From: Spirochaetae bacterium HGW-Spirochaetae-3
GTDB taxonomy: Bacteria > Spirochaetota > Spirochaetia > Treponematales > UBA12059
DNA: 64,000 nt
NCBI GenBank assembly: GCA_002839315.1
Contig: PGXV01000011.1
Span: forward strand, 124,001 to 188,000
Direction of reading: 5' to 3'
Made by a program: the position numbers and the translations under genes. The notes under the pieces were generated by a model. That model saw only the letters and a list, made by a program, of their open reading frames with translations. It did not search any database and had not been told where the DNA came from. Within the stretch, counting starts at the first letter, position 1, and each line of letters starts with the position of its first letter. Shown here piece by piece: positions 14,156 to 47,471 of this stretch.

Positions 14156-15079
14156 TTAGGCGTTCGCGTTCTTGACGTCCTGGTACGCCTTGCGGTCCGC
14201 GTACAGGTCGTCCTTGAGGGGATTCTTCCTGGTCCTGACGATAGTCCGGACCTGGTACGCGCCGACGCCGAGATTGAAGGCCAGGGCGATGACGCTGACC
14301 GCGTAATAGGCGGCGGGACTATGCGTCGAGGCGACAGCGTAGCGGCTCCCCACGAAGAAGTCCGGGATCGTCATCATGAGCATCATGTACAGCGCCAGCG
14401 TATGGACCCGGTGCTGCGCCCAGGCGCCCTTCTTGAAAAGGAACGCGGGGATCGTGCACGAGATGAGCAGGGCCGCGCTGTAGAACGCCCGATCCGTCAG
14501 GCAGTTGTATACGTAGGCGAAGTTCCAGAGGTCGTAGGCGATTATCCAGAACCACATCATGTCCGGCCAGACGAGATCATGGTGCCTGTCCTTGCTGATG
14601 ACGATGCCGAACCATCCGCACAGCGTCAGGCTGGTGATGATTCCCGCGATCACGTTCATCGCGTTCCAGGGGCCGCCCATATAGAACATGCCGTCGACCA
14701 CGCCGGCCTTCATGCCCATCACCTCGAGCTCGCGGGCGAGCGCCTCGATTATGTTGAGGACCAGGATAGCCGGCGCCAATACGTAGCACCACTTCCTCGC
14801 CTGCATCTTCTTCGAGAAGCGCAATCCCAAGCCTATATAGCAGCCTATCAACGCGGAGTTGGTCTTGACCCACGCGAACCAATTGGCCGTCTGGGAGCCC
14901 GTCCCCATTCCGGAGGTCCTCGGCCAGACGAAGAGCCCGAGGGCCAACGGGAGCACGATGAAGAACGCTATCCCCGTAAGCTTGTTGTACCGAGTCACCT
15001 CGTTGAAGAATAGCAGGCCGGCCAGGATGACTGCCCATGCCATCCACGAGTACCAATGGATCGTTTCGAATAAAAGCAT
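14156..15079 (-). CDS. DUF5692-type polytopic membrane protein, copy 2
   Basis: 307 residues, homologous over its whole length to the product of 2636-3553. The start at 15079 (MLLFETIHWYS) is set by an AAGGA site nine bases upstream and by matching the N-terminus of the other copy. It lies 68 bases downstream of the 890-residue oxidoreductase gene on the same strand, so they are probably one operon controlled by the divergent LysR gene at 18022. The pairing argues that this membrane protein works with the flavoenzyme. Confidence 0.75.
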   Translation of the reverse strand: MLLFETIHWYSWMAWAVILAGLLFFNEVTRYNKLTGIAFFIVLPLALGLFVWPRTSGMGTGSQTANWFAWVKTNSALIGCYIGLGLRFSKKMQARKWCYVLAPAILVLNIIEALARELEVMGMKAGVVDGMFYMGGPWNAMNVIAGIITSLTLCGWFGIVISKDRHHDLVWPDMMWFWIIAYDLWNFAYVYNCLTDRAFYSAALLISCTIPAFLFKKGAWAQHRVHTLALYMMLMMTIPDFFVGSRYAVASTHSPAAYYAVSVIALAFNLGVGAYQVRTIVRTRKNPLKDDLYADRKAYQDVKNANA

Positions 15080-15147
15080 GATCGACATTCCTTTTCTTAA
15101 AAAAAATATGGCAGCGGACGACGCTAGTCGCACGAAGCCAGGATTCG

Positions 15148-17820
15148 CTATGCCTTTCCGGAGAAGACTTCCATGAACGATCTCGCCGCGATTTTCGCGA
15201 CGCGTTTCATGGCGTACGGAGCGAGCTTGAGCGGAAGCCGTTCGAAGGTCGTTCCGACGACGTCGGATACTCTCTCCAGCGTAATTGCCTCTAGCTTGCA
15301 TTTGGTCGTGCATTGACCGCAACCGAGGCACATCTCGGCGTCGACGACGGCGGTACCGCAGCCCAGGCAACGCTCGGTCTCCTTCTTGAGTTGCTCCTCC
15401 GTAAAGGTCGCGCGCTTATCGGCGTATGTTGTTTTTCCTACGGATAGAGCCGTGGGTCTCTGCCGAGGCGTTTCGTCGTAGCCTTCCATGACGACGTTGG
15501 CCTTGTCCAGGGCGCGGTACGCGGAGCGGACGCGGCCGTAGACGAGGCTCTGGCCCTCCCACACGAAACGATGGATGGAGATCGAGGCCTGCTTCCCGGC
15601 CGCGATCGCGTTGATGGCGAATTTCGGCCCGGTAAACGCGTCTCCGCCGACGAAGACGTCGGGTTCCGCGGTCTGATACGTAAAATCATCCGCCTTCGCC
15701 GTAGCGTTCCGGTTCAGCTCGACCCTGCTTCCGTCGAGTAGCCTATCCCATAGGATAGCCTGGCCGACGGCTATGAGCACGTGGTCTGCGGGTACGATCT
15801 TCGTCACGGTCTCGTCGTACCGGGGGTCGAAGCGCCCCTGCCCGTCGAATACCGACGCGCATTTCCTGAATTCGACGCCGGTAACCCTGCCGTCCTCGGT
15901 GACGATACGCTTAGGTCCCCATCCGTTGTCGATCTCTATCTTTTCCTCGAGGGCTTCCTCTATCTCCTCCGCCAGGGCCGGCATCTCCGCCCTAGACTCG
16001 AGGCTGAACATAGAGGTCTTCCCGGCGCCCTCGCGGATCGCCGTGCGGGCGACGTCGATCGCGACGTTGCCGCCGCCGATAACGATTACGTTCCCCGAGA
16101 GCCCCGTCTTGCGGCCGAGGTTGACTTCGCGCAGGAAGTCGACGCCGGCGAGCGCGCCGTCCGCGTCCTCGCCCTCGATGCCGAGACTCCTGCCGCCCTG
16201 CGCGCCGATAGCCAGGTAGAAGGCCTCGAACCCCTGGCCCCGAAGCTCGTCCAGGCTGACCGAGCCGCCGACCTCTGTCCCCGTCCTGAACTCGACGCCG
16301 AGCTCCCTCAGTATATCGATCTCGGCGTCGAGCACGTCCTTCTCGAGCCTGAACGACGGTATGCCGAGGGCGAGCATGCCGCCGAGCCGCTCTCGCTTCT
16401 CGAACACGGTGACCCTGTAGCCGTCCACGGCCAGGAAGTACGCGCAGGAGAGGCCGGCCGGGCCGGAGCCGATCACGGCGATCTTCTTGTCGTATTCGTG
16501 CCGCTTTGCGGGAATGAAGCGGTTCTCCGCGTCGAGCTCCCTGTCGGCTATGAATTTCTTTATCTCGTCGATGGCCACGGGAGAGTCGATGCCCCCGCGG
16601 GTGCATTCCGACTCGCAGTCGTGCGGGCAGATGCGACCGCATACCGCGGGGAAGGGATTCTCCTTCTTGATGAGCTCCAGGGCGTCGGTGTACCGTCCCC
16701 GGGAAGCCAGCTTGATGTATCCCTGGACGGCTATATGGGCCGGGCACGTCGTCTTGCAGGGGGACGTACCGCTAGCCGCGACGTTCTCCCGGTTAATCCT
16801 GTAATCCTCGTTCCAGTGCTTCTTCGTCCAGACATGGTCGCGGGGAGAGAGCGTCTTCTCCTCGGCTACGGGATCCAAGGAGCATAGCTTCTGGCCGAGC
16901 TTCACGGCGTTGATCGGGCAGTTCTCGACGCACTGGCCGCAGGCTACGCACTTGCTCGCGTCCACGACCGCGACGTAGTTGGAACGGGTCATATCGGGGG
17001 CGTTGAACATCGCTGAGTTACGCGTCGCGTAGCAGCCGCAACCGCAGCAGTTGCATATCGCGTGGGTCTCGCCGTTATCGATATTAGGGATGTTATGCAT
17101 GAGCCCGTTTTCTTCGGCCTTCTTGATGATGGCGTCGGCTTCCTCGCGGGTTATCTCCCGGGCCTTGCCGGTACGGATATAGTATTCCGCCCCCTTGCCG
17201 AGCTGGATGCATATATCCTTCTCGAGGTGACCGCAGCCCTCGCCCAGGAGTCGTCTCGAGCGTCGGCACGAGCAGTCCGCCACCGCGAAGAGCGTATTCT
17301 TGTCGAGGATGGAAGATATCTCCTCGTAGCCGGCGCTATGCGTGTCGCCTTCTATGGCCGACTGGATGGGGATGACGCGCATGGGACCGTAGCCCATCGG
17401 CATCTTGGCCGAGAGCATCCCTCCGCGTAGGCGGGCGTACTCCTCGAAGGCCTTGGGTATCTGCGGATATTTCTCGCAGAGCTCCTTGTTGCTCACGACC
17501 TTCTCCATGACGCCCGGTACGAAGACCGTCAGCTCGTACAGGTCGACGCCGTTCTCCGAGCTGAAGACGCAGGCGCCTACCTCGGCCAGCTTGATCGCGA
17601 GCTCGCGCGTCTCGTCGACGGGCTTTCCGCACCTCCCGGCGATCTGTTCGACGGTCTGCGGCTCGCGCAGCTCCATCGCGAGCCCTACCTCGGCCATGGC
17701 GTCGGTGACGACGCAGTCGAGGACATAGTATTCAGGCGCGTCCTCGTCTATCTTGACCATCATGGCCGTGGCGCCGCAGATCTTCTTCGCCAGCCTCACG
17801 ATACATTTCCTCGCCGCCAT
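15148..17820 (-). CDS. FAD/NAD(P)-binding 4Fe-4S oxidoreductase, GltD/NfnB-like fusion, copy 1
   Basis: 890 residues in four parts. Residues 1-270 form a cysteine-rich domain (CSCRRSRRLLGEGCGH; CNCCGCGCYA) seen in some anaerobe proteins. Then comes a ferredoxin motif (CVACGQCVENCP). The centre is a glutamate-synthase-small-subunit-like module with its own FeS cysteines (CPAHIAVQGYI; CGRICPHDCESECTRG), a FAD Rossmann fold (IAVIGSGPAGLSCAYFL) and an NAD(P) fold (VIVIGGGNVAIDVA). The C-terminus has further Cys motifs (CLGCG, CLGCGQCTTKC). Such proteins move electrons between NAD(P)H and ferredoxin-like clusters. GGAGG precedes the start. A paralogue is at 27741-30443. Confidence 0.85.
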   Translation of the reverse strand: MAARKCIVRLAKKICGATAMMVKIDEDAPEYYVLDCVVTDAMAEVGLAMELREPQTVEQIAGRCGKPVDETRELAIKLAEVGACVFSSENGVDLYELTVFVPGVMEKVVSNKELCEKYPQIPKAFEEYARLRGGMLSAKMPMGYGPMRVIPIQSAIEGDTHSAGYEEISSILDKNTLFAVADCSCRRSRRLLGEGCGHLEKDICIQLGKGAEYYIRTGKAREITREEADAIIKKAEENGLMHNIPNIDNGETHAICNCCGCGCYATRNSAMFNAPDMTRSNYVAVVDASKCVACGQCVENCPINAVKLGQKLCSLDPVAEEKTLSPRDHVWTKKHWNEDYRINRENVAASGTSPCKTTCPAHIAVQGYIKLASRGRYTDALELIKKENPFPAVCGRICPHDCESECTRGGIDSPVAIDEIKKFIADRELDAENRFIPAKRHEYDKKIAVIGSGPAGLSCAYFLAVDGYRVTVFEKRERLGGMLALGIPSFRLEKDVLDAEIDILRELGVEFRTGTEVGGSVSLDELRGQGFEAFYLAIGAQGGRSLGIEGEDADGALAGVDFLREVNLGRKTGLSGNVIVIGGGNVAIDVARTAIREGAGKTSMFSLESRAEMPALAEEIEEALEEKIEIDNGWGPKRIVTEDGRVTGVEFRKCASVFDGQGRFDPRYDETVTKIVPADHVLIAVGQAILWDRLLDGSRVELNRNATAKADDFTYQTAEPDVFVGGDAFTGPKFAINAIAAGKQASISIHRFVWEGQSLVYGRVRSAYRALDKANVVMEGYDETPRQRPTALSVGKTTYADKRATFTEEQLKKETERCLGCGTAVVDAEMCLGCGQCTTKCKLEAITLERVSDVVGTTFERLPLKLAPYAMKRVAKIAARSFMEVFSGKA

Positions 17821-17998: not shown

Positions 17999-18021
17999 GC
18001 TTCGTCGCGTTGGAGAAGGCC

Positions 18022-18936
18022 ATGCAGATACAGTTCATCGAGTCGTTCCTGCAACTCTACAAGGACAGGAACATAACGAAGGCGAGCGCGAAGCTGTTCA
18101 TAACGCAACAGGGGCTGAGCAGGCAGATAAGGTCGTTGGAACGGGAACTGAACGTCTCGTTGTTCGATCGCTCCCGGTCCGGCGTCTCGCCGACCGACAT
18201 ATGCGAGGAAGTATTTCCACACCTACGAAAGGTACACGAAGAGTACCTGGCAGCCGCGAGGACCATAGAGGCGTCCCTACAGGCCGCGGGCAAGAACTCG
18301 GTACGGATAGCATTCGCCATCGGTATCTCGAACTGCGTCAACACTGATTTCCTCTTCGATTATCAGAAGGCGCACAAGGACGTGCGCATAGAGATCGAGG
18401 AATGGGCGCAGCCCGTTTGCGTCGAGAAGCTCTTGAACGGCGAGCTCGAACTAGCCTTCCTCGTCAATCCTATCGACCAGAAGCTACTCCGTTGCGTTCC
18501 ACTGGCTGAAGACTACATGTTCGCAGCCATCCACAGGGACCACCCCCTGGCAGCGGCGGATACTCCTCTGGAGTTCTCGCAGCTGGACCGGGAAAATATA
18601 ATAACGGGCTCGCCTGATAACGCGTTGCGCCGATTGTTCGACCGTTATTGCGAGCTGACCGGAATCAAGCCGAGGATTATCGTCTCGTCCAGCTACAGCC
18701 TCAATTTCGTGAACGCGATGACGGAGAATGCGGGCATCGCGACGGTGACCTCCGCGATGGCCGCGCGGATAACCAATCCCGCTATCGTCATACGGCGCCT
18801 CCTTACTCCCGAGCCGGGAGTGATGTATTGTTGCGTTCCGCTTCGGGTGGAACGGGACAAGGAGCGCCTCTCCGTCTTCCGCTACATCAAGGACTATTTC
18901 GAGACTACGCCCATGGACAGGTTCAAGGAGACGTAA
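18022..18936 (+). CDS. LysR-family transcriptional regulator
   Basis: 304 residues. The N-terminal winged helix (FIESFLQLYKDRNITKASAK then LFITQQGLSRQIRSLE) is canonical, followed by the two-lobed effector-binding domain (VRIAFAIGISNCVNTDFLF...). The start at 18022 has GGAG at the right distance; a TTG 12 bases upstream is less likely. It is divergent from the oxidoreductase/DUF5692 operon, the usual arrangement for a LysR protein and its target. Confidence 0.92.
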   Translation: MQIQFIESFLQLYKDRNITKASAKLFITQQGLSRQIRSLERELNVSLFDRSRSGVSPTDICEEVFPHLRKVHEEYLAAARTIEASLQAAGKNSVRIAFAIGISNCVNTDFLFDYQKAHKDVRIEIEEWAQPVCVEKLLNGELELAFLVNPIDQKLLRCVPLAEDYMFAAIHRDHPLAAADTPLEFSQLDRENIITGSPDNALRRLFDRYCELTGIKPRIIVSSSYSLNFVNAMTENAGIATVTSAMAARITNPAIVIRRLLTPEPGVMYCCVPLRVERDKERLSVFRYIKDYFETTPMDRFKET

Positions 18937-18957: not shown

Positions 18958-20860
<1,903 letters not shown>

Positions 20861-20875
<15 letters not shown>

Positions 20876-21495: not shown

Positions 21496-22044
21496 TTAAT
21501 CCGCGTAATTTTTCTTTAGCAAGGCCGGAGCGTCGAGCCCGTAGGGGCATTTCGCCGTGCACTGTCCGGACCCGATACACGCCTCGGTATCCTCCATCCT
21601 CTCCTGCGATATCGGAGTCAGCCTGTTCGCCGAGGGAGAGCGCCGTATTAGCAATGACATCCGCGGGGTCAATGCGGGCGGATTGTCTATGTGACCAAGC
21701 CATCCGTCAAGCTCGCTCTCTCGCTGTACGCCCCAGATCGGTATCACGTCGTCGTACTGCGCGACGAACGCGTACGCCGCCGCGGAATCGGCGATGAGGC
21801 CACCGGACAGGTACTTCGTGGCGATGATGACCTCGTCGCGAATCCCTTCAAAGGCTCGCCCCAGCTTGGCCTCGCTGTCCGAGTAGGCGCGGGACGAGTC
21901 GAAGAACCGCAGGCCGCCCTCGACGTCGACGTCCTTGCGCGGCATCCTTACCGCGGTTTCCATGTCTACGCGCTGGATGGGAAGCGCGCCGAAGCCGCTC
22001 CGTTCTACGTGTATCCCGGTGCCGCCCAATGTCATCTTAACCAT
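21496..22044 (-). pseudogene. Aldo/keto reductase with C-terminal 4Fe-4S region, internally deleted
   Basis: 182 residues where the family has ~310-390. The start ([20 protein letters not shown]), the strand with [16 protein letters not shown] and the next strand (IIATKY) are normal, and the end carries a ferredoxin-like motif ([16 protein letters not shown]). The middle of the TIM barrel between them is missing without loss of frame, so a folded barrel cannot form. GGAGG precedes the start, so the reading frame could still be translated. Confidence 0.75.
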
Positions 22045-22229: not shown

Positions 22230-22345
22230 TTTTTAGCTTGACGATTTCCCGGGGTGCCCTTAGAGTGATTTCGTCCTATTTTGAATTATTCCGAACTATA
22301 CCGAGGACGTATGAATCCCCGGGACTCCTGGACGATGGAAAATCC

Positions 22346-23137
22346 ATGAAAGATGATTCTGAAGACGCCGCGGAGAATACGAAGATCATAGCCGTAGCGG
22401 GTAAGGGCGGCGTAGGCAAGACGTCCCTGGCCGCCGTAATCGTCAAGCTGCTGGCGCAGTCTTTCCCCGACAAGAGAATCATCGCGATCGACGCCGACCC
22501 GGCGGTGGGCCTATCTACCGCCCTCGGCATAGAGGTTGTCACCACCCTGGACGACATCCGCAAGGAAGTCGTCGCGTCCGTGGAGAACGGCGAAACCAAA
22601 GAGGCCGTCGATCTGTTGGGCGAGGCTCAATACCGTATATACGACGCCATAGCGGAATCGAGCGGATTCTCTTTCATGGCCATCGGCAGACCCGAGGCCT
22701 CCGGATGCTATTGTTCGATCAACTCCTACCTGAAGGAAGTCATACGTATCCTTTCCAAGAACTTCGACTACGTCGTCATCGACGGCGAAGCCGGCATAGA
22801 GCAGGTAAACCGTCGCGTGATGGAAAAGGTAACGCACCTGCTTCTAGTGACTGACGCCAGCAAGAAGGGCGTGCAGGTAATCCATTCCATACGCAAGGTA
22901 GCCGACGAGCTCGTCATGTACGATAGGATCGGCGCCGTGGCGAACCGGCTTCCGGACCTCTCTGTCAAGGATTATATGGAGATGGGCGACATCACGGTGT
23001 TGGCGTATATAGCCGACGACCGGAATCTTGCAGCCTGCGACCTCGCCGGTGAGAATGTCCTCTATCTGCCGGACGACTCGGAAATTGTGCGGGGCGCGCG
23101 CGAGGCCCTTAAGAATATCGAAATACTGAAGGATTAG
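22346..23137 (+). CDS. CooC-like MinD/ParA-family ATPase
   Basis: 264 residues from ATG 22346 (an upstream TTG frame start adds an unlikely tail). The deviant Walker A GKGGVGKTS, switch region IAIDADPAVGLSTALG, and a CxC pair (GCYCS) near residue 120 match the CooC type of ATPase, which inserts metal into carbon-monoxide dehydrogenase and related enzymes as a dimer bridged by metal at the CxC site. First gene of a six-gene + strand operon with the dehydratase subunits and an ACS-like protein, suggesting it loads or reactivates a metal cluster there. Confidence 0.8.
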   Translation: MKDDSEDAAENTKIIAVAGKGGVGKTSLAAVIVKLLAQSFPDKRIIAIDADPAVGLSTALGIEVVTTLDDIRKEVVASVENGETKEAVDLLGEAQYRIYDAIAESSGFSFMAIGRPEASGCYCSINSYLKEVIRILSKNFDYVVIDGEAGIEQVNRRVMEKVTHLLLVTDASKKGVQVIHSIRKVADELVMYDRIGAVANRLPDLSVKDYMEMGDITVLAYIADDRNLAACDLAGENVLYLPDDSEIVRGAREALKNIEILKD

Positions 23138-23150
23138 GAAAGGGCCGGCG

Positions 23151-24344
23151 ATGAAGGATCTAAAGCACCTGTATTATCTCGAAAATTTGCTGCAAGACGC
23201 AAATAATAATCTCGTCCGCGAGGCTCAAGCGGGCGGACGCCTCGCCGTAGGCAGCGTCTGCAGCCTTATCCCCGAAGTCCTCTTGTCGCTGCCGGGATGC
23301 TTCCCCGTGCGCCTGCGCGCGCCTAACACCGGCTCCATAGACCTGGGCACGTACTATATGACGAGCATGTCGTGCGAATGCTGCCGTGCTCTCCTCGAGC
23401 GCGCGGTAGAGGGCGGTTATAAATTCCTAGATTGCATCATAGCGCCCGACGCCTGCGCACAGATGAACCGCTGCGTCGAGAACATAGACCTCCTCAAGCT
23501 ATGCGACAAGGAGAAGTTCTTCATCTCCTACTCGGACGTCCCGATGAAATCGGACGAGACGGCGCTCCGGCACTACGTCAAGCAGATGCGCATCCGCGTG
23601 CTCGAACAGCTCTCCGGCGTCTACGGGGTAGACGTTTCAGACGCGGCCCTGCGCGCGGCTGTCCTGGGTCACAACGAGGCATGCCGCCTCATTACCGCCA
23701 TTGGCGAATACCGCAAGGAAGATAATCCCCGCATTACAGGCTACGAGTTCGCCGTGCTGTGTACCGCTACCTACTGTTGCCCTAAAGACCTGCTCGTAGA
23801 CAAGCTACGCGAGACGCTCGATGAACTAGGCTCCCGCCAACCCGACTCGGGGAAGAATTTCCGCGCTCGCGTCGTCGTAGCCGGATCGGAGATCGATAAT
23901 CCGGATCTCATAAGGCTCATCGAGGGTTCGGGCGCCCTCGTGGTGGCCGACCGCTTCTGCTTCGGCTCACTGCCAGGCCGGCAGGAGATCGTATTGAACG
24001 ACGGCGAGGACGTGCTGCTGCAAATATGCCGGCAGTACCTGGCATGGGGGAAATGCGCGCGCTTCATGGATACCGCGAAGATCGAGGAGCGGCAGAGCTA
24101 TATCGACGAGCTGGCGAAGAGCTACCATGCGGACGGCATCATCTTCGAGCAGCAGAAATTCTGCGACTACTGGGGCTATGAGCGCGCCCTTGGCAGCCGC
24201 GTGATGAGGGACGACTACGGCTATCCCGTCCTGTCGGTGGACCTGCCCTACGCGGTGGGAACGAACGCCCAGCTACGCACGCGCGTCCAGGCCTTCGTCG
24301 AGAGCATCGAGATAAAGAACATCCAGGGGAAGGTAACGCGATGA
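23151..24344 (+). CDS. 2-hydroxyacyl-CoA dehydratase / benzoyl-CoA reductase family, subunit A
   Basis: 397 residues of the HgdB/BcrC-type fold. Cysteines in MSCECCRALLE and CTATYCCPKD and a late FEQQKFCDYWGYER match positions that bind the 4Fe-4S or double-cubane cluster in this superfamily. Its members use an electron pumped in at very low potential by an ATP-driven activator to reduce or dehydrate difficult substrates; some are double-cubane proteins acting on small molecules. The next gene overlaps by 4 bases (ATGA), as expected for partner subunits. Substrate unknown. Confidence 0.85.
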   Translation: MKDLKHLYYLENLLQDANNNLVREAQAGGRLAVGSVCSLIPEVLLSLPGCFPVRLRAPNTGSIDLGTYYMTSMSCECCRALLERAVEGGYKFLDCIIAPDACAQMNRCVENIDLLKLCDKEKFFISYSDVPMKSDETALRHYVKQMRIRVLEQLSGVYGVDVSDAALRAAVLGHNEACRLITAIGEYRKEDNPRITGYEFAVLCTATYCCPKDLLVDKLRETLDELGSRQPDSGKNFRARVVVAGSEIDNPDLIRLIEGSGALVVADRFCFGSLPGRQEIVLNDGEDVLLQICRQYLAWGKCARFMDTAKIEERQSYIDELAKSYHADGIIFEQQKFCDYWGYERALGSRVMRDDYGYPVLSVDLPYAVGTNAQLRTRVQAFVESIEIKNIQGKVTR

Positions 24345-25879
24345 GCACGGCGATGGGCAGCGAAAGGCTCGGAAATTTTTATACGGGCGGGAAGACCCGA
24401 ACGCGCCGCGAGTGGCGCGGCCTCAAGGATACCTGGTACGATTACACCCGCTGGCTATTTATATGGAAGACGATGATCAAATTCGCGACGAACCCGAACA
24501 ACGTGAGGGGCATGTTCCGCTATCGCTGGATGGCCAACTACCTCGTCGCGCCCGACTTCGTCGATCGTCACACCGAGGGCCTTCGCGGCCCGCAACTTCG
24601 GATAGCGCACCAGGAGTTCGACCTCATCGTCGAGCACATGTGCGATACCATATCCACCCTGTTCAAGGCGGATCCGCTCATCGGGAACGACGAGAGGCTT
24701 TCCAAGAGCATAGTCGTATTCGACGAGAACATGATGAGCCACATCATGAACGGCTTCCCGAATCTGCGCATGATATGTATCGAGATACCGCCGATATACA
24801 CGAGTTCCACCATGTGCCAGGACGGCGTCCTGCATTATATCGACGTGTCGCAGTCTTACGGTATTCCCGGAGACGTCTGTCCCATGCCTTCGGCCGAGCT
24901 CGGCGTCGCCATAGAGGACGACTATCCTCACATCGGCGCGTGCATGGTCCAATGCAATACCACCTGCGACGGCAGCCTCATGGCTAACGGCCTCGAAGCC
25001 CGCCGCTTCAAGATCCCGACCTTCCAGCTGGCCGTGCCCATCCGCCATACCCAGGACTCGGTCCAGGAGTACGCCGCCGACGAGGTGAAGAACGCCGTAC
25101 GCTTCATCGAGGAACAAACCGGAGAGCGATTCGACTGGGATAACTACTTCAAGTGCATGGATATCTTCAATCAGGAGACCAAGCAGATGCTCGAGTGGCT
25201 CGACCTGAGCCGCTCCCCGTATCCTCAGGTCATCGGCAACAACGTGGCGCTCTATCGCGACGCCACCTATCAGGTGGCCGGCGGCCGCGACGCCCGCTTC
25301 CTCGAGGCCGACGAGGAGATCACGAGGCTAGCCGTCGAAGGGTACAAGGCGAAAGCCCTCTGCGCGCCAGAGGTCCGCCACCGCGCCATCCTGTGGGGAG
25401 TCCAGGCCCAGTACTATACGGCCTTCCCGCTCTGGCTTCAGAACTGCTGGGGCATACTGCCTCTCATCGATATGCTGAGCCTCACGTCGACGCGCATCTT
25501 CAGTATTGACGATAGAGACCAGGCGATGCTCGACATGGCCCATCTTTACCAGAACATGACCATGCGCAACCGCTCTAACGGCGGGTACGAGGTAGGCGTA
25601 AACGACCTATGGCGATTCTGCGAGAGCTTCAAGGCCGACATGGTCATCATGTACGAGCATATCGGATGTAAGGCCATGGCGGGCTATCACGGTATCTTCG
25701 AGGAGCAGGCCCGTGAGCGTGGCATAAAGATGGTGTGGGTTACCCACGGGCTCATGGACCCGCGCGCCGCCTCGCGGAAGGACATGCGCAACGACGTGAG
25801 CCGCTACATGCACACGGTGCTAGGCGAGGAGGCACTCGACGCGAGCCTGGAAGACTTCGACGACTCGAACGCATGGTAA
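24341..25879 (+). CDS. 2-hydroxyacyl-CoA dehydratase / benzoyl-CoA reductase family, subunit B
   Basis: 512 residues, longer than the usual 370-450. Family features include NGFPNLRMICIEIPPIY, the Cys-containing VQCNTTCDGSLMANG, the NYFKCMDIFNQETKQ helix and the C-terminal EHIGCKAMAGYHG followed by a Rossmann-like half. It starts in overlap with subunit A and is followed by the activator. An N-terminal ~60-residue extension rich in Arg and aromatic residues is unusual for the family. Confidence 0.8.
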   Translation: MSTAMGSERLGNFYTGGKTRTRREWRGLKDTWYDYTRWLFIWKTMIKFATNPNNVRGMFRYRWMANYLVAPDFVDRHTEGLRGPQLRIAHQEFDLIVEHMCDTISTLFKADPLIGNDERLSKSIVVFDENMMSHIMNGFPNLRMICIEIPPIYTSSTMCQDGVLHYIDVSQSYGIPGDVCPMPSAELGVAIEDDYPHIGACMVQCNTTCDGSLMANGLEARRFKIPTFQLAVPIRHTQDSVQEYAADEVKNAVRFIEEQTGERFDWDNYFKCMDIFNQETKQMLEWLDLSRSPYPQVIGNNVALYRDATYQVAGGRDARFLEADEEITRLAVEGYKAKALCAPEVRHRAILWGVQAQYYTAFPLWLQNCWGILPLIDMLSLTSTRIFSIDDRDQAMLDMAHLYQNMTMRNRSNGGYEVGVNDLWRFCESFKADMVIMYEHIGCKAMAGYHGIFEEQARERGIKMVWVTHGLMDPRAASRKDMRNDVSRYMHTVLGEEALDASLEDFDDSNAW

Positions 25880-25935
25880 CGCCTCGCAAGGCAACCTGAC
25901 GGTAATTCTTGAAAGCAACCAAGGAGATGAATACG

Positions 25936-26739
25936 ATGAAATACTATGGCGGCTGCGATGCCGGAAGTACGTATACTAAATGCGCGATTGTGGATGAGAC
26001 CGGGAAGCTCGTGGCCTCCGTGACGAGCCGTAGCCGGATCAACCCGGTCCTGAGCGCGCAGGCCGCGCTGGACGAGGCCGTCGCCACGCTGGACGACCTC
26101 AAGGGAGCCAAGGACCTGGCCTACCTCATCGGTACGGGCTACGGGCGCAACAAGGTGCCGTTCGCCGATGAGAATATTTCCGAGATAAGCTGCCACGCCA
26201 TGGGCGTGCACGTCGTGGACCCTTCGGTGAAATCCATACTCGATATCGGCGGCCAGGACGTAAAGGGCATAGCGATAGACGCAGACGGAACGGTGCTCAA
26301 TTTCGCGATGAACGATAAGTGCTCCGCCGGTACCGGCCGCTTCTTCGAGGCGATGGCTCACGCCTTCGAGATGCCGCTCGACGAGTTCTCAAAGCTATCG
26401 CTCAAGGCCAAGAACGTCATCCCTATAACGGCACAATGCACGGTATTCGCCGAGAGCGAGGTCATATCGCTCGTTGGCGAGGGTAAGCCGATGGACGAGA
26501 TAGCCGCGGGCATCCAGCTTTCCGTGGCCAAGCGATGCTTCGTAATGGCGAAGAAAGCCGCGGCGACCGATAGCATCGCGCTGACCGGCGGCTGCGCCAA
26601 GAACCATGGACTAAAGCAGGCCATCGAACGGGTCCTCAAGATCAAGGTCGTCGACTTGCCCGTCGACCCGCAGCTCATGGGCGCCCTGGGCGCCGCCGAA
26701 TACGCCCGCCAGAAGGGCCTCGCGTCCGCCAAGGCGTAG
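25936..26739 (+). CDS. Acyl-CoA dehydratase activator ATPase (BadF/BadG/BcrA/BcrD/HgdC family)
   Basis: 267 residues of the actin-like ASKHA ATPase fold. It shows the phosphate loop GGCDAGSTYTKCAI, the second motif LDIGGQDVKGI, and the two cysteines that bind a 4Fe-4S cluster shared across the homodimer (MNDKCSAGTGRF and TAQCTVFAESEV). This protein uses ATP to push single electrons into the dehydratase-type enzyme encoded by the two preceding genes. Start at 25936 is set by AAGGAG nine bases upstream. Confidence 0.92.
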   Translation: MKYYGGCDAGSTYTKCAIVDETGKLVASVTSRSRINPVLSAQAALDEAVATLDDLKGAKDLAYLIGTGYGRNKVPFADENISEISCHAMGVHVVDPSVKSILDIGGQDVKGIAIDADGTVLNFAMNDKCSAGTGRFFEAMAHAFEMPLDEFSKLSLKAKNVIPITAQCTVFAESEVISLVGEGKPMDEIAAGIQLSVAKRCFVMAKKAAATDSIALTGGCAKNHGLKQAIERVLKIKVVDLPVDPQLMGALGAAEYARQKGLASAKA

Positions 26740-26755
26740 TAAAAAGGAAGCAACA

Positions 26756-26911
26756 ATGAAAGTCCTGCTGATAATCGCGTACGTGGCGCTAGGCCTGTTC
26801 CTCCTTTCCCTCGCGGTCTACTTTAGCAACCTGGACATGAAGGCCGCGGCCGGGATGCAGGCGTTCCTCAGGAATCACTACGACAGGATAAAGCGCGACC
26901 GGCGCCTCTAA
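26756..26911 (+). CDS. 51-residue single-helix membrane peptide
   Basis: MKVLLIIAYVALGLFLLSLA begins a strong transmembrane helix, followed by a basic amphipathic tail (NHYDRIKRDRRL). AAGGAA lies 7 bases upstream and the gene fits tightly between activator (16 bases) and the ACS-like gene (34 bases), so it is very likely translated. It may anchor the complex to the membrane. No family recognised. Confidence 0.6.
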   Translation: MKVLLIIAYVALGLFLLSLAVYFSNLDMKAAAGMQAFLRNHYDRIKRDRRL

Positions 26912-26945
26912 CAGGCGACCTTGGAACGAGTGGTAGTAATCGGCG

Positions 26946-27668
26946 ATGCTATTATATGATAGGCTGATCGAAGACTGCCTCGGCCTCCTAAAAGGGAGGC
27001 CGGGGCGCCGCCTGGCTGAAGGCGTTACCGGCGCGGACTGGCCGGACGCCGGAGACTGCAACCTCATCCTGAAGGGCGAGATGGCGTACGAGCTGGGAGG
27101 CGGCAGCCTCCCTGCCGTCAGCGGGATCGGGTTCACGTCGTCGGACCGGCACGTATGCGGCGACGAGATATGGCTCTACGGCCGGGACCTGCCCGAGCTT
27201 AGGGAAGACGCGCCCTACGCGCGGCTGGTTTTCCTGCGGGTAGCCGAGAATGGACTAGGCGATGAAGCCGCGGCTTACGCCGCTATTCGGAAGATAGAAT
27301 ATACGCGATACCATGTAGCGCCTCAGGGTTATATGATGCGCATATCCGCGGCTATGGAACGCGAGTCCGTTCGCGTCGGCCGCGAGGCCTTGCGGGCCGG
27401 GTTGGATTTCTCCAAGGTCGGCGGGCTTTTCCTCGATGGCTACCGCCGCCACCCCGAAGTCCTGGCAGCCAAGCTGATATTCATAACGCTCCCGGATTTC
27501 CCGTATGAAGAGCTGGGCCGACAGGTCCGCCAAGCCGAGAAGATTACCGGGGCGCTCGACCATATCTTCAAGAACCTGCGCATGGATTGCTCGTCGTGCG
27601 AACTGAAGGAGGTGTGCGACGAGGTCGAAGGGATGAGGGCGCTACACTCCTCCAACGCGGGGAAGTAA
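26946..27668 (+). CDS. Acetyl-CoA synthase/CODH beta-subunit-like protein
   Basis: 240 residues. The middle (YMMRISAAMERESVRVGREA then LDFSKVGGLFLDGYRRHPEV) resembles the second domain of acetyl-CoA synthase (AcsB/CdhC), and the C-terminus carries a compact cysteine motif (MDCSSCELKEVCDEVEGM). The catalytic A-cluster domain is absent. Last gene of the operon; a strong terminator follows at 27691. With the CooC-like ATPase it points to a role in metal-cluster assembly or protein interaction. The family assignment rests on remembered motifs only. Confidence 0.5.
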   Translation: MLLYDRLIEDCLGLLKGRPGRRLAEGVTGADWPDAGDCNLILKGEMAYELGGGSLPAVSGIGFTSSDRHVCGDEIWLYGRDLPELREDAPYARLVFLRVAENGLGDEAAAYAAIRKIEYTRYHVAPQGYMMRISAAMERESVRVGREALRAGLDFSKVGGLFLDGYRRHPEVLAAKLIFITLPDFPYEELGRQVRQAEKITGALDHIFKNLRMDCSSCELKEVCDEVEGMRALHSSNAGK

Positions 27669-27690
27669 GAGAGCCCGGAGCGAGGACAAA

Positions 27691-27722
27691 GAAAAGCCAA
27701 GCATCGCGCTTGGCTTTTCTAT
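27691..27722 (+). terminator. Intrinsic terminator after the dehydratase-type operon
   Basis: AAAAGCCAAGC - ATCGC - GCTTGGCTTTT stem-loop with U-rich end, 22 bases after the last stop. The A-run on the other arm lets it serve the convergent oxidoreductase gene as well. Confidence 0.85.
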
Positions 27723-27740: not shown

Positions 27741-30443
27741 TTACTTGCCTTTTACGGTAAATTGGCCGGTTATTCCCTTCGCGGCTATCCTGCCGCCGCG
27801 CTTCAGCATATTCGGGGCTACCACTCCGATAACCGCCTTCTCGAATACCCCGCCGACCGCGTCGCTCTTTCTTACGAGCTGGATAGCGTCGAACTGGCAT
27901 TTCGTGGTGCAGATGCCGCAGCCGACGCACATATACTCGTCGACGATAGAGGCGCCGCAACCCAGGCAACGCTCGGTCTCCTTCTTGACCTGCTCCTCCG
28001 ACAGAGTACCCCGGAGGTCGCGGAAAGTACCCTTCGCCGTGGCTGCGGTCTCTCCGACGGGCCTCTGCCTGGGCATCGAGTCATAGCTCTCCAGGTCCGC
28101 GTTCTTCTTATCCAGCTCCTTGTACTGCTTGCGGTCGCGACCTATGACGAGACTCTGGCCGGGCTGCACGAAGCGGTGGATGGAAATGGCGGCTTCCTTG
28201 CCCGCGGCGATCGCGTCTATGGCGAACTTAGGACCCGTAAACGCGTCGCCGCCCGCGAAGATATCCGAGTGAGCGGTCTGGTACGTGAAGGCGTCGGCCT
28301 TGACGGTATCGTTGCGGTTCAGCTCCACCTTGGTGCCTTCAAGAAGCGCGCCCCATTGGATGGACTGGCCGACGGTCAGGAGGACCTTGTCGCAGTCGAC
28401 GGTCTTGGTTTCTTTTTCGTCATACGCGGGATTGAACCTGCGATCGGCGTCGAAGACCTTGACGCACTTCTTGAAGACGACGCTCTTTACTTTACCGCCC
28501 CCCTGGATGATTTCCCTCGGCCCCCAAGCGTTGTGGATGACGATGCCTTCCGCCTCGGCCTCTTCTATCTCATCCACGGACGCGGGCATGATATCTCGGG
28601 TTTCAAGGCAGAACATCGAAACGGTTTTCGCGCCTGCCCGCACGGCGGTCCTCGCCACGTCTATGGCTACGTTGCCGCCGCCGATGACGACGACGTCGCC
28701 GTCGAGCATGGCTTCCTTACCGAGGTTGATATCGCGAAGGAAGTCTACGCCGGCTACGGCGCCCTCGGCGTCCTCTCCCGGTATGCCTATCCTGCGTCCG
28801 CCCTGAGCGCCGATAGCCATATAGAAGGCCTTGTAGCCCTCGGCCCGGAGCTGGTCGAGAGTGACGTCCTTGCCGACCTCGACGCCGGTCTTGAATGCGA
28901 CGCCCATCTCCCTGAGCACGTCGATCTCGGCCTCGACGACGTCCTTCTCCAGGCGGAAGGATGGGATTCCGAGCATCAGCATACCGCCGAGCTTCTTCTC
29001 CTTCTCGTACACGGTGACGGGGTAGCCCTTCTGCGCGAGGTAGAACGCACAGGAGAGGCCCGCCGGGCCGGCGCCGACGACGGCGACCTTCTGGGGATAT
29101 GGCTTACCGATAGTGTTGAGCATCGGCGGAACGTAGCGGGTCCTCGCGTCGAGGTCCCGCTGGGCTATGAACTTCTTGATCTCGTCGATGGCTACGGGCT
29201 CGTCTATATCGCCGCGGGTACAGGCATCCTCGCAGCGTCGGTTGCATATGCGCCCGCATACCGCGGGGAAGGGGTTCTCCTTCTTGATGAGCTCCAAGGC
29301 CTCGCGGTATTTCCCCTGCGCGGCCAGCTTGACATAGCCCTGGATGCCGATGTGGGCCGGGCAGTTGGTCTTGCACGGCGAGGTGCCCGATTCCACGACG
29401 TCGACGCGCGTAGTCCGGTAGTCGGGATTCCACTTGTCCGGGCCCCACATGGTATCCCTCGGATGCTCGTGCTTGAATTCGGTAACGACGGGCGTCTTCG
29501 AGCATAGCTTCTGTCCCAGCTTCACGGCGTTGACCTGGCAGTTCTCGACGCACTGGCCGCACGCGACGCATTTCTCGGGGTCGACCTTGGCGCCGTAATT
29601 AGAGCGGCTGAAGTCGAACGCGTTATAGTACTCGCTGACGCGTAGCGCGAAGCAGGAGCAGCCGCAGCAGTTGCATATGGCGAGGGTCTTGCCGGGACCG
29701 TCCAGGTTCGGCGTCTGATGGACGAGGCCGTTGTCCTCCGCGCGCCTCAGGATCTCGTAGGCTTCTTCCTTGTCGATCTGCCTGGCCTTGCCGGTGCGCA
29801 CGAAAAATTCAGCGCCGTCGTCCAGCTGGATGCACATGTCCGTTTCCAGGTGACCGCATCCTTCGCCCATGAGGCGGCGGGAACGGCGGCAGGTGCAGTC
29901 TGATACGGCCAGCATGTACGCGTTCTCGACGTAGTTGGAGACCTCCTCGAAGCTACGGGTTACGGTTTCTCCGGATATGGCCTTCTCGACGGGAATGACG
30001 CGCATGAGGCCGTTGCCGACGGGCAAGTTTGGCGCCAGCATCTGCGTTCGCCTGCGGGTATAGTCTTCGAAGCACTCGCCAAGGACGGGATACCGTTCGG
30101 CGTTAGCCGTATTGGCGACCATGCATTCCATGATGCCGGGCACCCAGATCGGCAGGAAACATTTGTCCTCTCCGTCATGCTTGGCGATCTTGCAGACGCC
30201 CGCGTCCGCCAACTTCAGGAGTTGCTCGGCGCAGTGCTCTTCGGGCTTGCCTACGTTCCTTGCGACGTCGGCGACGGTCAGCCATTTCCTTACTTTAAGC
30301 CCGAGCCCGACCTCGGCCATGTCGTCCGTAACGACCGGATCGAGAATCCTGTATTCCGGATCTTCTACCGTGATACCCGTATAGGTCAAGGATTCGATGC
30401 TGATCTTGCACGCCAACTTCATGATGAGGGGGCGTTTTGCCAT
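27741..30443 (-). CDS. FAD/NAD(P)-binding 4Fe-4S oxidoreductase, GltD/NfnB-like fusion, copy 2
   Basis: 900 residues with the same domain order as the product of 15148-17820: cysteine-rich N-terminal domain (CTCRRSRRLMGEGCGH; CNCCGCSCFA), ferredoxin motif CVACGQCVENCQ (one Pro changed), GltD-like FeS domain (CGRICNRRCEDACTRG), FAD fold (VAVVGAGPAGLSCAFYL), NAD(P) fold (VVVIGGGNVAIDVA) and C-terminal CVGCGICTTKC. The start at 30443 is fixed by AGGAG eight bases upstream. Unlike copy 1 it has no DUF5692 gene behind it; instead it is convergent with the dehydratase-type operon, to which it could feed electrons. Confidence 0.85.
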   Translation of the reverse strand: MAKRPLIMKLACKISIESLTYTGITVEDPEYRILDPVVTDDMAEVGLGLKVRKWLTVADVARNVGKPEEHCAEQLLKLADAGVCKIAKHDGEDKCFLPIWVPGIMECMVANTANAERYPVLGECFEDYTRRRTQMLAPNLPVGNGLMRVIPVEKAISGETVTRSFEEVSNYVENAYMLAVSDCTCRRSRRLMGEGCGHLETDMCIQLDDGAEFFVRTGKARQIDKEEAYEILRRAEDNGLVHQTPNLDGPGKTLAICNCCGCSCFALRVSEYYNAFDFSRSNYGAKVDPEKCVACGQCVENCQVNAVKLGQKLCSKTPVVTEFKHEHPRDTMWGPDKWNPDYRTTRVDVVESGTSPCKTNCPAHIGIQGYVKLAAQGKYREALELIKKENPFPAVCGRICNRRCEDACTRGDIDEPVAIDEIKKFIAQRDLDARTRYVPPMLNTIGKPYPQKVAVVGAGPAGLSCAFYLAQKGYPVTVYEKEKKLGGMLMLGIPSFRLEKDVVEAEIDVLREMGVAFKTGVEVGKDVTLDQLRAEGYKAFYMAIGAQGGRRIGIPGEDAEGAVAGVDFLRDINLGKEAMLDGDVVVIGGGNVAIDVARTAVRAGAKTVSMFCLETRDIMPASVDEIEEAEAEGIVIHNAWGPREIIQGGGKVKSVVFKKCVKVFDADRRFNPAYDEKETKTVDCDKVLLTVGQSIQWGALLEGTKVELNRNDTVKADAFTYQTAHSDIFAGGDAFTGPKFAIDAIAAGKEAAISIHRFVQPGQSLVIGRDRKQYKELDKKNADLESYDSMPRQRPVGETAATAKGTFRDLRGTLSEEQVKKETERCLGCGASIVDEYMCVGCGICTTKCQFDAIQLVRKSDAVGGVFEKAVIGVVAPNMLKRGGRIAAKGITGQFTVKGK

Positions 30444-30466
30444 TGCTAGTCTCCTGTATCGATAAA

Positions 30467-30496
30467 TTATTATACCCGACAGTAGTGTCATAATAT
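30467..30496. promoter_or_regulatory. TTATTAT...GACA-N4-TGTC...ATAATAT inverted repeat
   Basis: Upstream of the oxidoreductase start, GACA-GTAG-TGTC (30478-30489) is nested in an outer A/T inverted repeat. The core matches the palindrome at 22216-22229, suggesting a common regulator. The remaining 30497-30733 sequence has no gene; an AT-rich stretch at 30675-30715 may hold the promoter for the next gene. Confidence 0.45.
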
Positions 30497-34793: not shown

Positions 34794-34828
34794 AGGCACC
34801 AGGTTAGTCAATCATGGAGGAGACACAT

Positions 34829-36010
34829 ATGCCTGATATAGGGAACGAAGAGATTCTAAAGGCCATAGTGGCCGCGGTTGAGTTGCCGGATTCTGCCTAT
34901 GAGAAAGCCAAAGATCGATATGAAGATCTGGGAGAATGGCTCGGACTCCCTTCGTCCGATATGTCGAAGTATTCGCCTCATACCCTACCCCAGGGATCTT
35001 TCAGGATTGGTACCGCTATCCGCCCTCTTCTGGATAAAGAAGAGTACGATCTCGATATCACGTGCCGATTCGAAACTGGTTTGATGATGGGGAATATCTC
35101 CCAGGCGGACCTACGGAGCATGGTGAAAAAAGATATCGAAGCGTATCGCAGGGAAAGGGGAATCCAAGCCCCGCTGGATGAAAAGCATCGATGCTTTAGA
35201 CTGGAGTACCAGGACCATCTCAGCTTCCATATGGACATAGTCCCCAGTATTCCAGATTCGCCGGAAAGCAGAGTACTTCTTGAGAAAGCCTTTTCCCAAC
35301 GGGCATACTCTGCTTCTCTCATTCAGAACGTCAGTTCAATGGCATCGAGAATCACTGATGATCGTTGCCCTGATTACAAAACAATCTCCAGTTCTTGGCT
35401 GAGTAGCAATCCGGAAGGTTATGCCCGTTGGTTCGAGGAGCAGATGCTTTCCCAGAGATTGCTAAAGTCATTCCAGGAAAGAGCCCAAGTCGATGCCTTG
35501 CCAAGCTACAAGAGGAAGGCGCCTCTCCAGCGGGCAATACAGATTCTAAAGCGCCATCGAGACTGGATGTTCAAGGACATGCCTGATTCTAAGCCGATTT
35601 CAATAATAATAACGACGCTAGCAACCCAGGCATACAACGGGGAGGACGATCTTGAGTCAACCCTCTTTGCAGTCATCGCGGGAATGGAGAGGCACGTAAG
35701 CCAGACGAAACCGCGCGTGCCCAATCCCGTGAATCCGGAAGAAGACTTTGCAGACAAGTGGGACGATCCAAACTATGCCCCGCTTCGTTTGGAAGAAAAC
35801 TTTAAGAAGTGGCTTCTTCAAGCAAAGGCAGACTGTAACAGGATTCTAGGATCCACAAACCCTCAGGACCTCAGGAAGTCGGCAGGCAATTTTTCGGTCA
35901 CCCTTCGCGAATCCGAAGCGGAGCGTCTCATGAAAGGTCGCTCGCCCAATCCGACCCCATCTATTGTAATCATCCCCAAGGATCCTCCCAAGCCTTGGAT
36001 GGTTTTGTGA
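34829..36010 (+). CDS. CBASS CD-NTase (cGAS/DncV-like nucleotidyltransferase)
   Basis: 393 residues. The polymerase-beta-type active site is complete: GS at residues 56-57 (PQGSFRIGT), the Asp pair in YDLDITC (D74, D76) and the third Asp in FHMDIVPS (D136). On sensing phage such enzymes make a cyclic oligonucleotide that activates the effector. The start at 34829 is preferred because GGAGGAG lies 6 bases upstream. Its stop overlaps the GTG start of the E2-like gene (GTGA). The clade, and therefore the signal molecule, cannot be decided by eye. Confidence 0.9.
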   Translation: MPDIGNEEILKAIVAAVELPDSAYEKAKDRYEDLGEWLGLPSSDMSKYSPHTLPQGSFRIGTAIRPLLDKEEYDLDITCRFETGLMMGNISQADLRSMVKKDIEAYRRERGIQAPLDEKHRCFRLEYQDHLSFHMDIVPSIPDSPESRVLLEKAFSQRAYSASLIQNVSSMASRITDDRCPDYKTISSSWLSSNPEGYARWFEEQMLSQRLLKSFQERAQVDALPSYKRKAPLQRAIQILKRHRDWMFKDMPDSKPISIIITTLATQAYNGEDDLESTLFAVIAGMERHVSQTKPRVPNPVNPEEDFADKWDDPNYAPLRLEENFKKWLLQAKADCNRILGSTNPQDLRKSAGNFSVTLRESEAERLMKGRSPNPTPSIVIIPKDPPKPWMVL

Positions 36011-36660
36011 CGATCGAAGAGGACATCGAAGCCCTGCTGGATAGACAACAGGGAATGTCGCTAATACCCTCCTGGGATAAAGGGTTTCTCCTTGCGGGAG
36101 ATTATCGTTTTCAGGCAAAGCCCGAGGGCGGGGAACTTGTCTCAGACCAGTTCGCAATTAAAATATTGGTTCCGGCTACATTCCCTTCTCAGTTGCCAAC
36201 ATTTTGGGAGGTCGGCTCAAGAATACCAAAGAAGGCTAACTGGCACATCAACATCAAGACTGATTGTTCTATCTGCCTAGGTGGAGGGCTAAGTCTTCGG
36301 CTCGTCGCTCGGAAACATCCCAGTCTGACGAGCTATTTTGAGAATACGCTTGTACCCTACCTCTATGCCGTATGCCTTCGTGAGCGCCATGGTGGATCCT
36401 TCATCTTTTCGGAGCTTTCGCATGGAGAGGAAGGACTAATTGAAGAAGTTCGAGATCTGCTCGTACTTCCAAGTGATAGGGCTGCCGTAGCGGTGATTCG
36501 CCTGCTGTCAATGAAGAAGCGGGTTGCCAACAAGATTCTATGCCCCTGTGGCTGTCGGGAACGCTTTGGCATTTGCCAATTACAGGGAAAACTATATAAT
36601 TTTCGGAGTCTAGAAACGAGGAAATTCTACAAGGGTTATCTCCAGCACATGCGGAAGTAG
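36007..36660 (+). CDS. CBASS E2-like protein with C-terminal Cys cluster (short type II)
   Basis: 217 residues from GTG 36007, overlapping the CD-NTase stop. The E2-like half contains IKILVPATFPSQLPTFWEVG and the site WHINIKTDCSICLGGG with Cys87 or Cys90 as candidate catalytic residue after a His. The C-terminus has a SEC-C-like cluster (CPCGCRERFGIC). Short type II CBASS loci carry such an E2-only protein in place of the E1-E2 Cap2 and JAB Cap3; it is thought to conjugate or prime the CD-NTase. No cap2 or cap3 gene is present. Confidence 0.8.
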   Translation: MTIEEDIEALLDRQQGMSLIPSWDKGFLLAGDYRFQAKPEGGELVSDQFAIKILVPATFPSQLPTFWEVGSRIPKKANWHINIKTDCSICLGGGLSLRLVARKHPSLTSYFENTLVPYLYAVCLRERHGGSFIFSELSHGEEGLIEEVRDLLVLPSDRAAVAVIRLLSMKKRVANKILCPCGCRERFGICQLQGKLYNFRSLETRKFYKGYLQHMRK

Positions 36661-36741
36661 CCAGGCGTTGCGAGTGATCCTATCGCGGTCGAGAGGCAAG
36701 AGGTTTGATCAGCTTGTCATCTTGATCTAGCAAATAGGATC

Positions 36742-37935
36742 TTAGTGCAATACAGTGAGATCTGTACCTATTTCTAAAACTGCCTTGTAATAATCATGGA
36801 CGAGATTGAAGTCGTAAATTAGCCAAGGACTGTCCGCTTTGGGCATCCTAATTCGACCAAGCTCGATTGCACAAGAGACGGGTATTGCGGGCAAGATATG
36901 AATGGGTGTGTCTTTGCCGTGGGCTTCTCCGATCTGTACAATGCAACTCCGAAGTATTTTTCGAAACTCAGAGAGCTGTTGCTCACTCTGGATAAGGTCG
37001 TTGTGAGGCGATGAGACGGTAATCTTCCAGACGGCAGAGGTGCCCTGGACGGATCGCCCAATTCTAGCTGGATCGATTGAGTCACTAAGGGAGAGAGCTA
37101 GTACGGGGATTCCAGAACATTCCGTAGGAGGGATGATCTTAAAACCAAGATCGCAATCATCTTCTCTCCATTTCCAGGATGGTGCCGGTTCCCGATGAAG
37201 TTGAAATGTTCTGCAGGTCAGCTTATCGGTGATCAGGGAGCCTAATACAAATAACAGAGGGATTGGTGCAAGGGCGAAAATGGAGAAATGCTTGATTGAC
37301 GGATCGGAAAGTTTGGGTCCAACCATTCTGACATAGTTCCTCTTCAGCTCCTCGAGCTGAGCTTGCCAATAGATGACGGTGTGGTCTTCTCCGTTCCATG
37401 ACATAGAGAGGTCCGTGGGTTGAGGGCTGTCCGGCAACCAATCTGGGAAGACCGCCTCCATTACATCCTGAGCAATAATCTTGGACGGCACTTTACCGGT
37501 GTTTGCACCAAAAACAAGAATATGCGTTCGCTTATTTTCGGCTATGCCAGTTGCCTGCTCCACTAGTTGCTCATGGTCGTGTTTCCATTTGCGAAGGAGC
37601 TCAGCAGAGTAGCGAATGCCTTTAATATCAGAATCGATGAGCTTGTGGCAATCGTGACAGAGGAGCATGAGATTATCTATGCTATTCAGACGTTCTTTAT
37701 CTTTGGCGAAGATGCCATGCCCGCGCGCACCATGCTCCGAGAACGAGTAGATATGAGCCTTTTCGGCAATATTTACCTGCTCCTGTGTCAAGGGAGAGCG
37801 ATAGAGGATCTTGTTACATCCATCGAACTCGCACCGGCCTGCGGCTCTTCCCCATAATTCACTTTCAATGCTCCTCTTGATGCTCCTCGTAACATCGGTC
37901 ATTTCGGCAGTAGCGCAATCTTTCGATTTCTTCAC
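36742..37935 (-). CDS. cap5: CBASS effector, HNH nuclease fused to SAVED domain (Cap5-like)
   Basis: 397 residues from GTG 37935. Residues 20-105 are an HNH nuclease with zinc ligands (GRCEFDGCNK and LLCHDCHKLI) and a catalytic His in AEKAHIYSF. Residues 150-397 match a SAVED sensor (FGANTGKVPSK; IKHFSIFALAPIPLLFVLGS; PIHILPAIPVSCAIELGRI). On binding the cyclic nucleotide, Cap5 forms tetramers and degrades DNA. It is convergent with the CD-NTase/E2 pair, not in one operon with it, and its start shares a base with the stop of an upstream reading frame (TAGTG). An ATG at 37902 is an alternative start. Confidence 0.9.
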   Translation of the reverse strand: MKKSKDCATAEMTDVTRSIKRSIESELWGRAAGRCEFDGCNKILYRSPLTQEQVNIAEKAHIYSFSEHGARGHGIFAKDKERLNSIDNLMLLCHDCHKLIDSDIKGIRYSAELLRKWKHDHEQLVEQATGIAENKRTHILVFGANTGKVPSKIIAQDVMEAVFPDWLPDSPQPTDLSMSWNGEDHTVIYWQAQLEELKRNYVRMVGPKLSDPSIKHFSIFALAPIPLLFVLGSLITDKLTCRTFQLHREPAPSWKWREDDCDLGFKIIPPTECSGIPVLALSLSDSIDPARIGRSVQGTSAVWKITVSSPHNDLIQSEQQLSEFRKILRSCIVQIGEAHGKDTPIHILPAIPVSCAIELGRIRMPKADSPWLIYDFNLVHDYYKAVLEIGTDLTVLH

Positions 37936-42222: not shown

Positions 42223-42358
42223 GTTTCTATTCCTCCCAGGTCCAATTGGTGCATCGCATCCATATCTCATTGTTATATATTTTTTAATAACATACGCTTA
42301 ACCGGCAGCGCGTCATTGGCACGGTTTGTGCGCCAGGACGTGAAGCAGCCAGCATATA

Positions 42359-42399
42359 ACCGTGACAATAGCGCTATCCGGCCGAAGCGATTGTTCGGT
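42359..42399. repeat. Bulged hairpin at the 3' edge of the AT-rich GHKL gene
   Basis: ACCG-tg-ACAAT-ag-CGCT pairs with AGCG-ATTGT-t-CGGT, leaving unpaired bases on one strand only, a shape seen in integron attC sites. The canonical RYYYAAC / GTTRRRY boxes are not present, so this is only a similarity. It lies 9 bases after the GHKL gene stop. The rest of 42223-42407 holds no gene. Confidence 0.35.
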
Positions 42400-42407
42400 G
42401 CCTTTCT

Positions 42408-44099: not shown

Positions 44100-44122
44100 T
44101 TTATTCCTCCAAATTTCTCTTG

Positions 44123-44139: not shown

Positions 44140-44187
44140 GAACACCATTATACCTTGCCAATTCATCTCAATGAAACGTGGGAACTA

Positions 44188-47462: not shown

Positions 47463-47471
47463 GTGATCTCC

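Follow-up and report, generated by a model that had tools for sequence, protein, structure and literature searches.

A conserved gene cassette for a probable ATP-dependent double-cubane-type reductase with putative CooC-like and acetyl-CoA-synthase-like helper proteins

What kind of enzyme is encoded by an operon that combines two dehydratase/reductase subunits and their activator with a CooC-like metal ATPase, a small membrane peptide and a protein resembling acetyl-CoA synthase (ACS)? Such an operon lies in a 64,000-nucleotide stretch of contig PGXV01000011.1 from Spirochaetae bacterium HGW-Spirochaetae-3 (the window), and no description of this combination was found in the open-access literature. 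Among the reactions known in cells, those of double-cubane enzymes are some of the most strongly reducing, and we know of only a few such enzymes with a known role. A preliminary description had suggested a low-potential reductase with special cluster assembly, possibly of the double-cubane type. The sequences support this suggestion through the cluster ligands, the separate clades of both subunits and the conservation of the CooC-like and ACS-like (ACSL) genes. We consider it likely that the cassette encodes an ATP-dependent double-cubane-type reductase. With somewhat less confidence, we propose that its enzyme forms a new branch within the superfamily of ATP-dependent double-cubane reductases (class I benzoyl-CoA reductases, BCR; hydroxyacyl-CoA dehydratases, HAD; and the double-cubane cluster protein, DCCP) and has a dedicated maturation module.

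The operon comprises six intact open reading frames on one strand (22346-27668), spaced by -4 to +34 bases, i.e., from a 4-base overlap to 34-base gaps. The CooC gene may start at 22346, 22331 or 22238, and the activase gene at a TTG (25909) or at an ATG slightly downstream. The relevant features are:

14156-17820, - strand: IsrA-type oxidoreductase gene (match to IsrA), followed by a DUF5692 gene
22238..22266, + strand: promoter-like site TTGACG-17-TAGAGT (weak; the consensus scan found 3 sites where 2.4 were expected)
22346..23137, + strand: CooC-like ATPase of the ParA/MinD type, with Walker A (GKGGVGKT) and CxC (SGCYCSINSYL) motifs
23151..24344, + strand: HgdA, HGD-D subunit of 397 aa, BzdN/DCCP-like (PF06050, 290 bits)
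24341..25879, + strand: HgdB, divergent HGD-D subunit of 512 aa, active-site type (PF06050, 124.8 bits)
25909..26739, + strand: activase of the acyl-CoA dehydratase activase type, the putative ATP-driven electron donor (TIGR00241, 210 bits; cut-off 125.4)
26756..26911, + strand: single-span membrane peptide of 51 aa with a conserved (Y)FFNLDMK motif and a basic C-terminus (63 homologous ORFs in the loci)
26946..27668, + strand: ACSL, 240 aa, homologue of the ACS middle (A2) domain without the A-cluster domain (profile match to ACS)
27690..27720, + strand: terminator-like stem-loop of 13 pairs, separating the operon from the convergent IsrA gene (consensus match only)
27741..30491, - strand: IsrA-type FAD/Fe-S oxidoreductase of 916 aa, outside the operon, related to cassette-linked IsrA of Faecalicatena

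Several other genes were observed in the window. A LysR regulator gene (18010-18936) is divergent from the IsrA/DUF5692 pair, and such a pairing of an IsrA homologue with DUF5692 has been reported (PMC10134865). Adjoining the cassette is an apparent pseudogene of a GH2 beta-galactosidase (18958-20874, - strand), which is split into several frames. A shortened aldo/keto reductase gene with a ferredoxin-like tail (21496-22044, - strand) is probably an internally deleted remnant. Farther to the right, a CBASS-like pair (34814-37935) encodes a DncV-like cyclase on one strand and a SAVED-HNH effector on the other, and a defence-like island (38264-51183, - strand) with strong PADLOC matches encodes a PLD-helicase, a Fic protein, an ATPase, a DUF1156 methylase and a DUF499 protein. 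A RecT-like recombinase gene (52978-54063, + strand) lies in a region of lower G+C content (40-55%, compared to about 60% on the left), which suggests a prophage or mobile island.

Both subunits exceeded the PF06050 cut-off and the activase that of TIGR00241, placing them in the BCR/HAD/DCCP superfamily and agreeing with the earlier naming of two dehydratase/reductase subunits and an activator. Besides HgdA and HgdB, the host genome encodes no PF06050 protein. The curated bzd/bcr models (102.5 of 453.8 and 16.2 of 448.6 bits for the two subunits), the Had models (91.5 of 700 bits for HgdA, 21.6 of 750 bits for HgdB) and the DCCP model NF040772 (128.7 and 39 of 350 bits) all remained below cut-off, NF040772 being the best-scoring model for both subunits. 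In the tree, HgdA formed one clade and HgdB another, each with 100/100 support and a long stem; HgdA fell on the side of BzdN, HadC and MbdN, and HgdB on that of HadB and MbdO. Because of the long branches, the exact placement among BCR, HAD and DCCP is unsure. Neither subunit grouped with HadB/HadC, the ordinary 2-hydroxyacyl-CoA dehydratases. At the gene level, HgdA and HgdB, whose divergent genes lie side by side and belong to separate clades, also differ from DCCP, which forms a homodimer from the product of one gene.

The [8Fe-9S] double cubane of BzdN is coordinated by Cys36/73/100/263/293/327, and the [4Fe-4S] cluster of BzdO by Cys95/128/380 (PMC11971306). All six BzdN ligands have counterparts in HgdA (C37/75/102/270/302/338, profile alignment), which gives the earlier double-cubane guess support at the residue level. 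These cysteines are invariant in 78 sequences, with C270 present in 77 and a single unreadable residue in the remaining one, while in HadC the first of these positions is occupied by Pro and the fourth by Ala. Such conservation is compatible with a double cubane in HgdA but does not prove that it forms. In HgdB, C180/209/443 correspond to the BzdO ligands (C209 is shifted by one residue, which was resolved via the HadB alignment) and are invariant in 81 sequences, as are C201, C205, C369, C427, H77, H347, H440 and H469. BzdO His131 has no conserved counterpart in the cassette. The AlphaFold model of HgdB (pLDDT 82.6) was nearest to HadB/BzdO. By secondary-structure prediction, three strands of its C-terminal domain begin at or just after H347, C369 and C427, and these residues possibly form a second metal site. 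On the basis of the tree, the model cut-offs and the ligand pattern, we reject an ordinary dehydratase.

The remaining proteins were also as the preliminary description had called them. The best PDB match of the CooC-like ATPase was CooC1 (3kje, E = 8.9e-14) with its CYC motif aligned; by sequence motifs, the protein has a deviant Walker A and a CxC metal site, both cysteines of which are invariant in 53 of 53 sequences. C138 and C177 of the activase are likewise invariant, and the 51-residue peptide contains one strong hydrophobic span (hydropathy 2.8 across 19 residues). ACSL alone had no Pfam match and matched ACS/CdhC at E = 0.011 only. A profile of 17 ACSL sequences matched the ACS middle domain (E = 3.9e-7), PF03598 was found in 14 of the 17 members, and the only significant Foldseek matches of the AlphaFold model (pLDDT 85) were ACS and CdhC chains. 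The A-cluster (A3) domain with its CxxC...C...C and CGC motifs is absent from ACSL, the match stopping with the middle domain of this 240-aa protein. The surroundings of the invariant R143 align with the RVSK motif near Arg429 of ACS, a region that presumably has a CoA role. At the C-terminus, ACSL carries a CxxCx5C...H motif (C215, C218, C224, H234), in which a remnant of the A-cluster loop can at most be suspected.

Among 84,980 GTDB species genomes scanned, 415 stretches were found to encode a relative of the 512-aa subunit, and the best 80 of these were retrieved, mostly from Lachnospiraceae but also from Emergencia and Treponema. The order CooC-HgdA-HgdB-activase-peptide-ACSL was kept in 38 of 65 well-flanked loci and rotated, with ACSL in front, in another 3, so that the CooC and ACS-like genes accompany the subunits in conserved order in 41 of 65; 21 loci contained HgdA-HgdB with or without the peptide. 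Since this order is conserved in dozens of divergent loci, a chance arrangement is excluded. Close relatives of the 512-aa subunit occurred in only 3 of 294 sampled genomes of the host's order and in none of seven other sampled members of the host genus, and one distant member of the order (G255) carries the cassette in the same gene order at 37% identity. This sporadic spread suggests horizontal transfer; a search for plasmid or phage carriage of the cassette gave no match.

The cassette also comes apart. Two loci (L141 and L147) hold the CooC, activase, peptide and ACSL genes together without HgdAB, which is located elsewhere in those genomes (L056 and L091), and complete cassettes (L138 and L142) occur in Pseudobutyrivibrio genomes that additionally hold orphan HgdAB copies. 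One helper set can therefore probably serve several HgdAB pairs. From these arrangements and the knowledge of the superfamily, it follows that HgdAB is the enzyme and that CooC, activase, peptide and ACSL are its helpers. In some loci (L145, L067-L079), an FMN-reductase-like, lipoprotein or kinase-like gene is inserted between HgdB and ACSL. No conserved substrate gene was detected among the neighbour families. The upstream chaperone and DUF5685 genes are shared by few loci, and we take their position beside the cassette as a coincidence.

In most hosts there is no CODH/ACS that CooC and ACSL could serve, because ACS scored above cut-off in 3 and CODH in 11 of 47 cassette genomes (absent in 44 and 36, respectively); the genome studied here has neither above cut-off. 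We therefore reject the view that these genes are leftovers of CODH/ACS. HypA and HypB are encoded near some cassettes. Among 250 Lachnospiraceae genomes, however, HypB was present in 51 of 51 IsrA-bearing genomes and in only one of five with ACSL but without IsrA. HypB thus tracks IsrA and not the cassette, and HypAB probably serves IsrA, as has been argued (PMC10134865). This weakens the nickel reading, and HypA/HypB as proof of nickel was set aside. The pointers to nickel in the cassette are CooC and ACSL, and on these we regard its presence as possible, if doubtful.

Both oxidoreductases flanking the operon in the window (890 and 916 aa) match IsrA-type proteins. In the IsrA tree (read without the mistranslated row u_own_L194), the 916-aa protein grouped with the linked IsrA of two Faecalicatena genomes (L176/L177; support 99/96), and one exclusive clade holds 20 of 27 cassette-linked IsrA. 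Across the 250 Lachnospiraceae genomes, IsrA was present in 15 of 20 with ACSL compared to 36 of 230 others (P = 5e-8, uncorrected for relatedness), and in 6 of the 15 co-occurring genomes it lies within about 6 kb of ACSL. The 916-aa IsrA is thus a probable functional partner, which may supply electrons or share a pathway with the cassette. It is not obligatory, since G255 (86% complete genome) has the cassette and no IsrA was found there.

For the electron flow, the clusters and metal involved, and the roles of ACSL and the peptide, we infer the following scheme. The activase, driven by ATP, would pass single electrons from a low-potential donor to an [8Fe-9S] double cubane of HgdA. This cluster would act as an electron store feeding the [4Fe-4S] site of HgdB, at which a hard-to-reduce substrate would be reduced. 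CooC, ACSL and the membrane peptide may form a dedicated maturation and anchoring module that accompanies the activase. Within it, CooC and ACSL could carry out cluster assembly, CooC most likely as a loader of metal, possibly Ni(II), and ACSL as its partner or carrier.

The closest competitor is an all-iron reductase like BzdNO, in which CooC and ACSL would assemble or insert the Fe-S double cubane itself without nickel. We hold this to be quite possible, if short of probable: the HgdA ligands are those of the all-iron BzdN set, and HypB is missing from four of five cassette genomes without IsrA, whereas CooC retains a CxC aligned with the metal-binding CYC of CooC1 and we know of no CooC requirement in BzdNO or DCCP. 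That the cassette encodes the first nickel-dependent member of the HGD-D/double-cubane proteins, with CooC and the ACS-derived protein inserting the nickel and the additional invariant Cys/His residues of HgdB as its possible site in HgdAB, seems unlikely to us. We are equally sceptical of a 2-hydroxyacyl-CoA dehydratase or benzoyl-CoA-reductase-like enzyme whose substrate is an ordinary CoA thioester and in which ACSL would help by binding CoA. The predicted HgdB fold, nearest to HadB and BzdO, and the ACS-like surroundings of R143 speak for it. It is countered by scores far under all HAD and BCR model cut-offs, by the subunits' own clades, by the two HgdA cysteines missing from HadC, and by the neighbourhood, where no CoA-ligase or CoA-transferase was recognised among the most frequent families.

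Two further explanations depend on genes outside the operon. The cassette could have no substrate of its own and serve IsrA-type nickel oxidoreductases as an ATP-driven activator or partner, as the co-occurrence and proximity of ACSL and IsrA and the exclusive IsrA clade would suggest; we regard this as improbable, since 5 of the 20 cassette genomes have no IsrA and most IsrA genomes have no cassette. Further, a Lachnospiraceae acetogen with CO dehydrogenase activity was reported to have no CODH/ACS (PMC7000372), and the presence of CooC and ACS-like proteins might suggest an alternative CODH/ACS forming acetyl-CoA in Lachnospiraceae that have no canonical complex. This is very hard to reconcile with the data: genuine matches to the corrinoid protein (CFeSP) are confined to the three genomes with a real ACS, the A-cluster domain is missing from ACSL, and no match to ACSL was obtained in G461, apparently the published Ca. 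G. soehngenii assembly, so that the published acetogen itself appears to be without ACSL.

A double-cubane-type reductase with its own helpers thus remains our preferred reading. This widespread branch, which brings along a metal-loading ATPase of its own and a part of ACS turned to new use, would offer a handle on how double-cubane clusters are built, and because the helpers form a module, their part in maturation can be tested directly by removing genes. The cassette also points to a hard reduction in many gut and rumen bacteria.

Parts of the cassette resemble several known systems. The operon of the putative isoprene reductase IsrA of Acetobacterium encodes a homologous FAD/Fe-S oxidoreductase with HypA/HypB, which are often found beside the cassette, but it has no HGD-D, CooC or ACSL genes (PMC10134865). 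With CooC1, the nickel ATPase of CODH maturation, the cassette CooC shares the fold family, Walker A and CxC, although 36 of 47 cassette hosts, our own included, lack a CODH above cut-off. The middle (A2) domain of AcsB/CdhC has a homologue in ACSL, which nevertheless lacks an A-cluster domain, is 240 aa long and ends in CxxCx5C...H. The (R)-2-hydroxyisocaproyl-CoA dehydratase HadBC belongs to the same superfamily and shares the fold of both subunits, while HadC lacks two of the six HgdA cysteines and the proteins form separate clades. DCCP and its reductase have the double-cubane ligand set found in HgdA, and NF040772 is the best model for both subunits; DCCP, however, is a homodimer with two double cubanes, whereas the cassette has two different genes far under the model cut-off. 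The class I BCR BzdNO/PQ likewise combines a double-cubane subunit (six Cys), a [4Fe-4S] active-site subunit (three ligands) and an ATP-dependent activator (PMC11971306). The cassette differs from it in scoring far under the bzdN/bzdO cut-offs, in not conserving BzdO His131, and in having a single activase gene together with a dedicated CooC, ACSL and membrane peptide.
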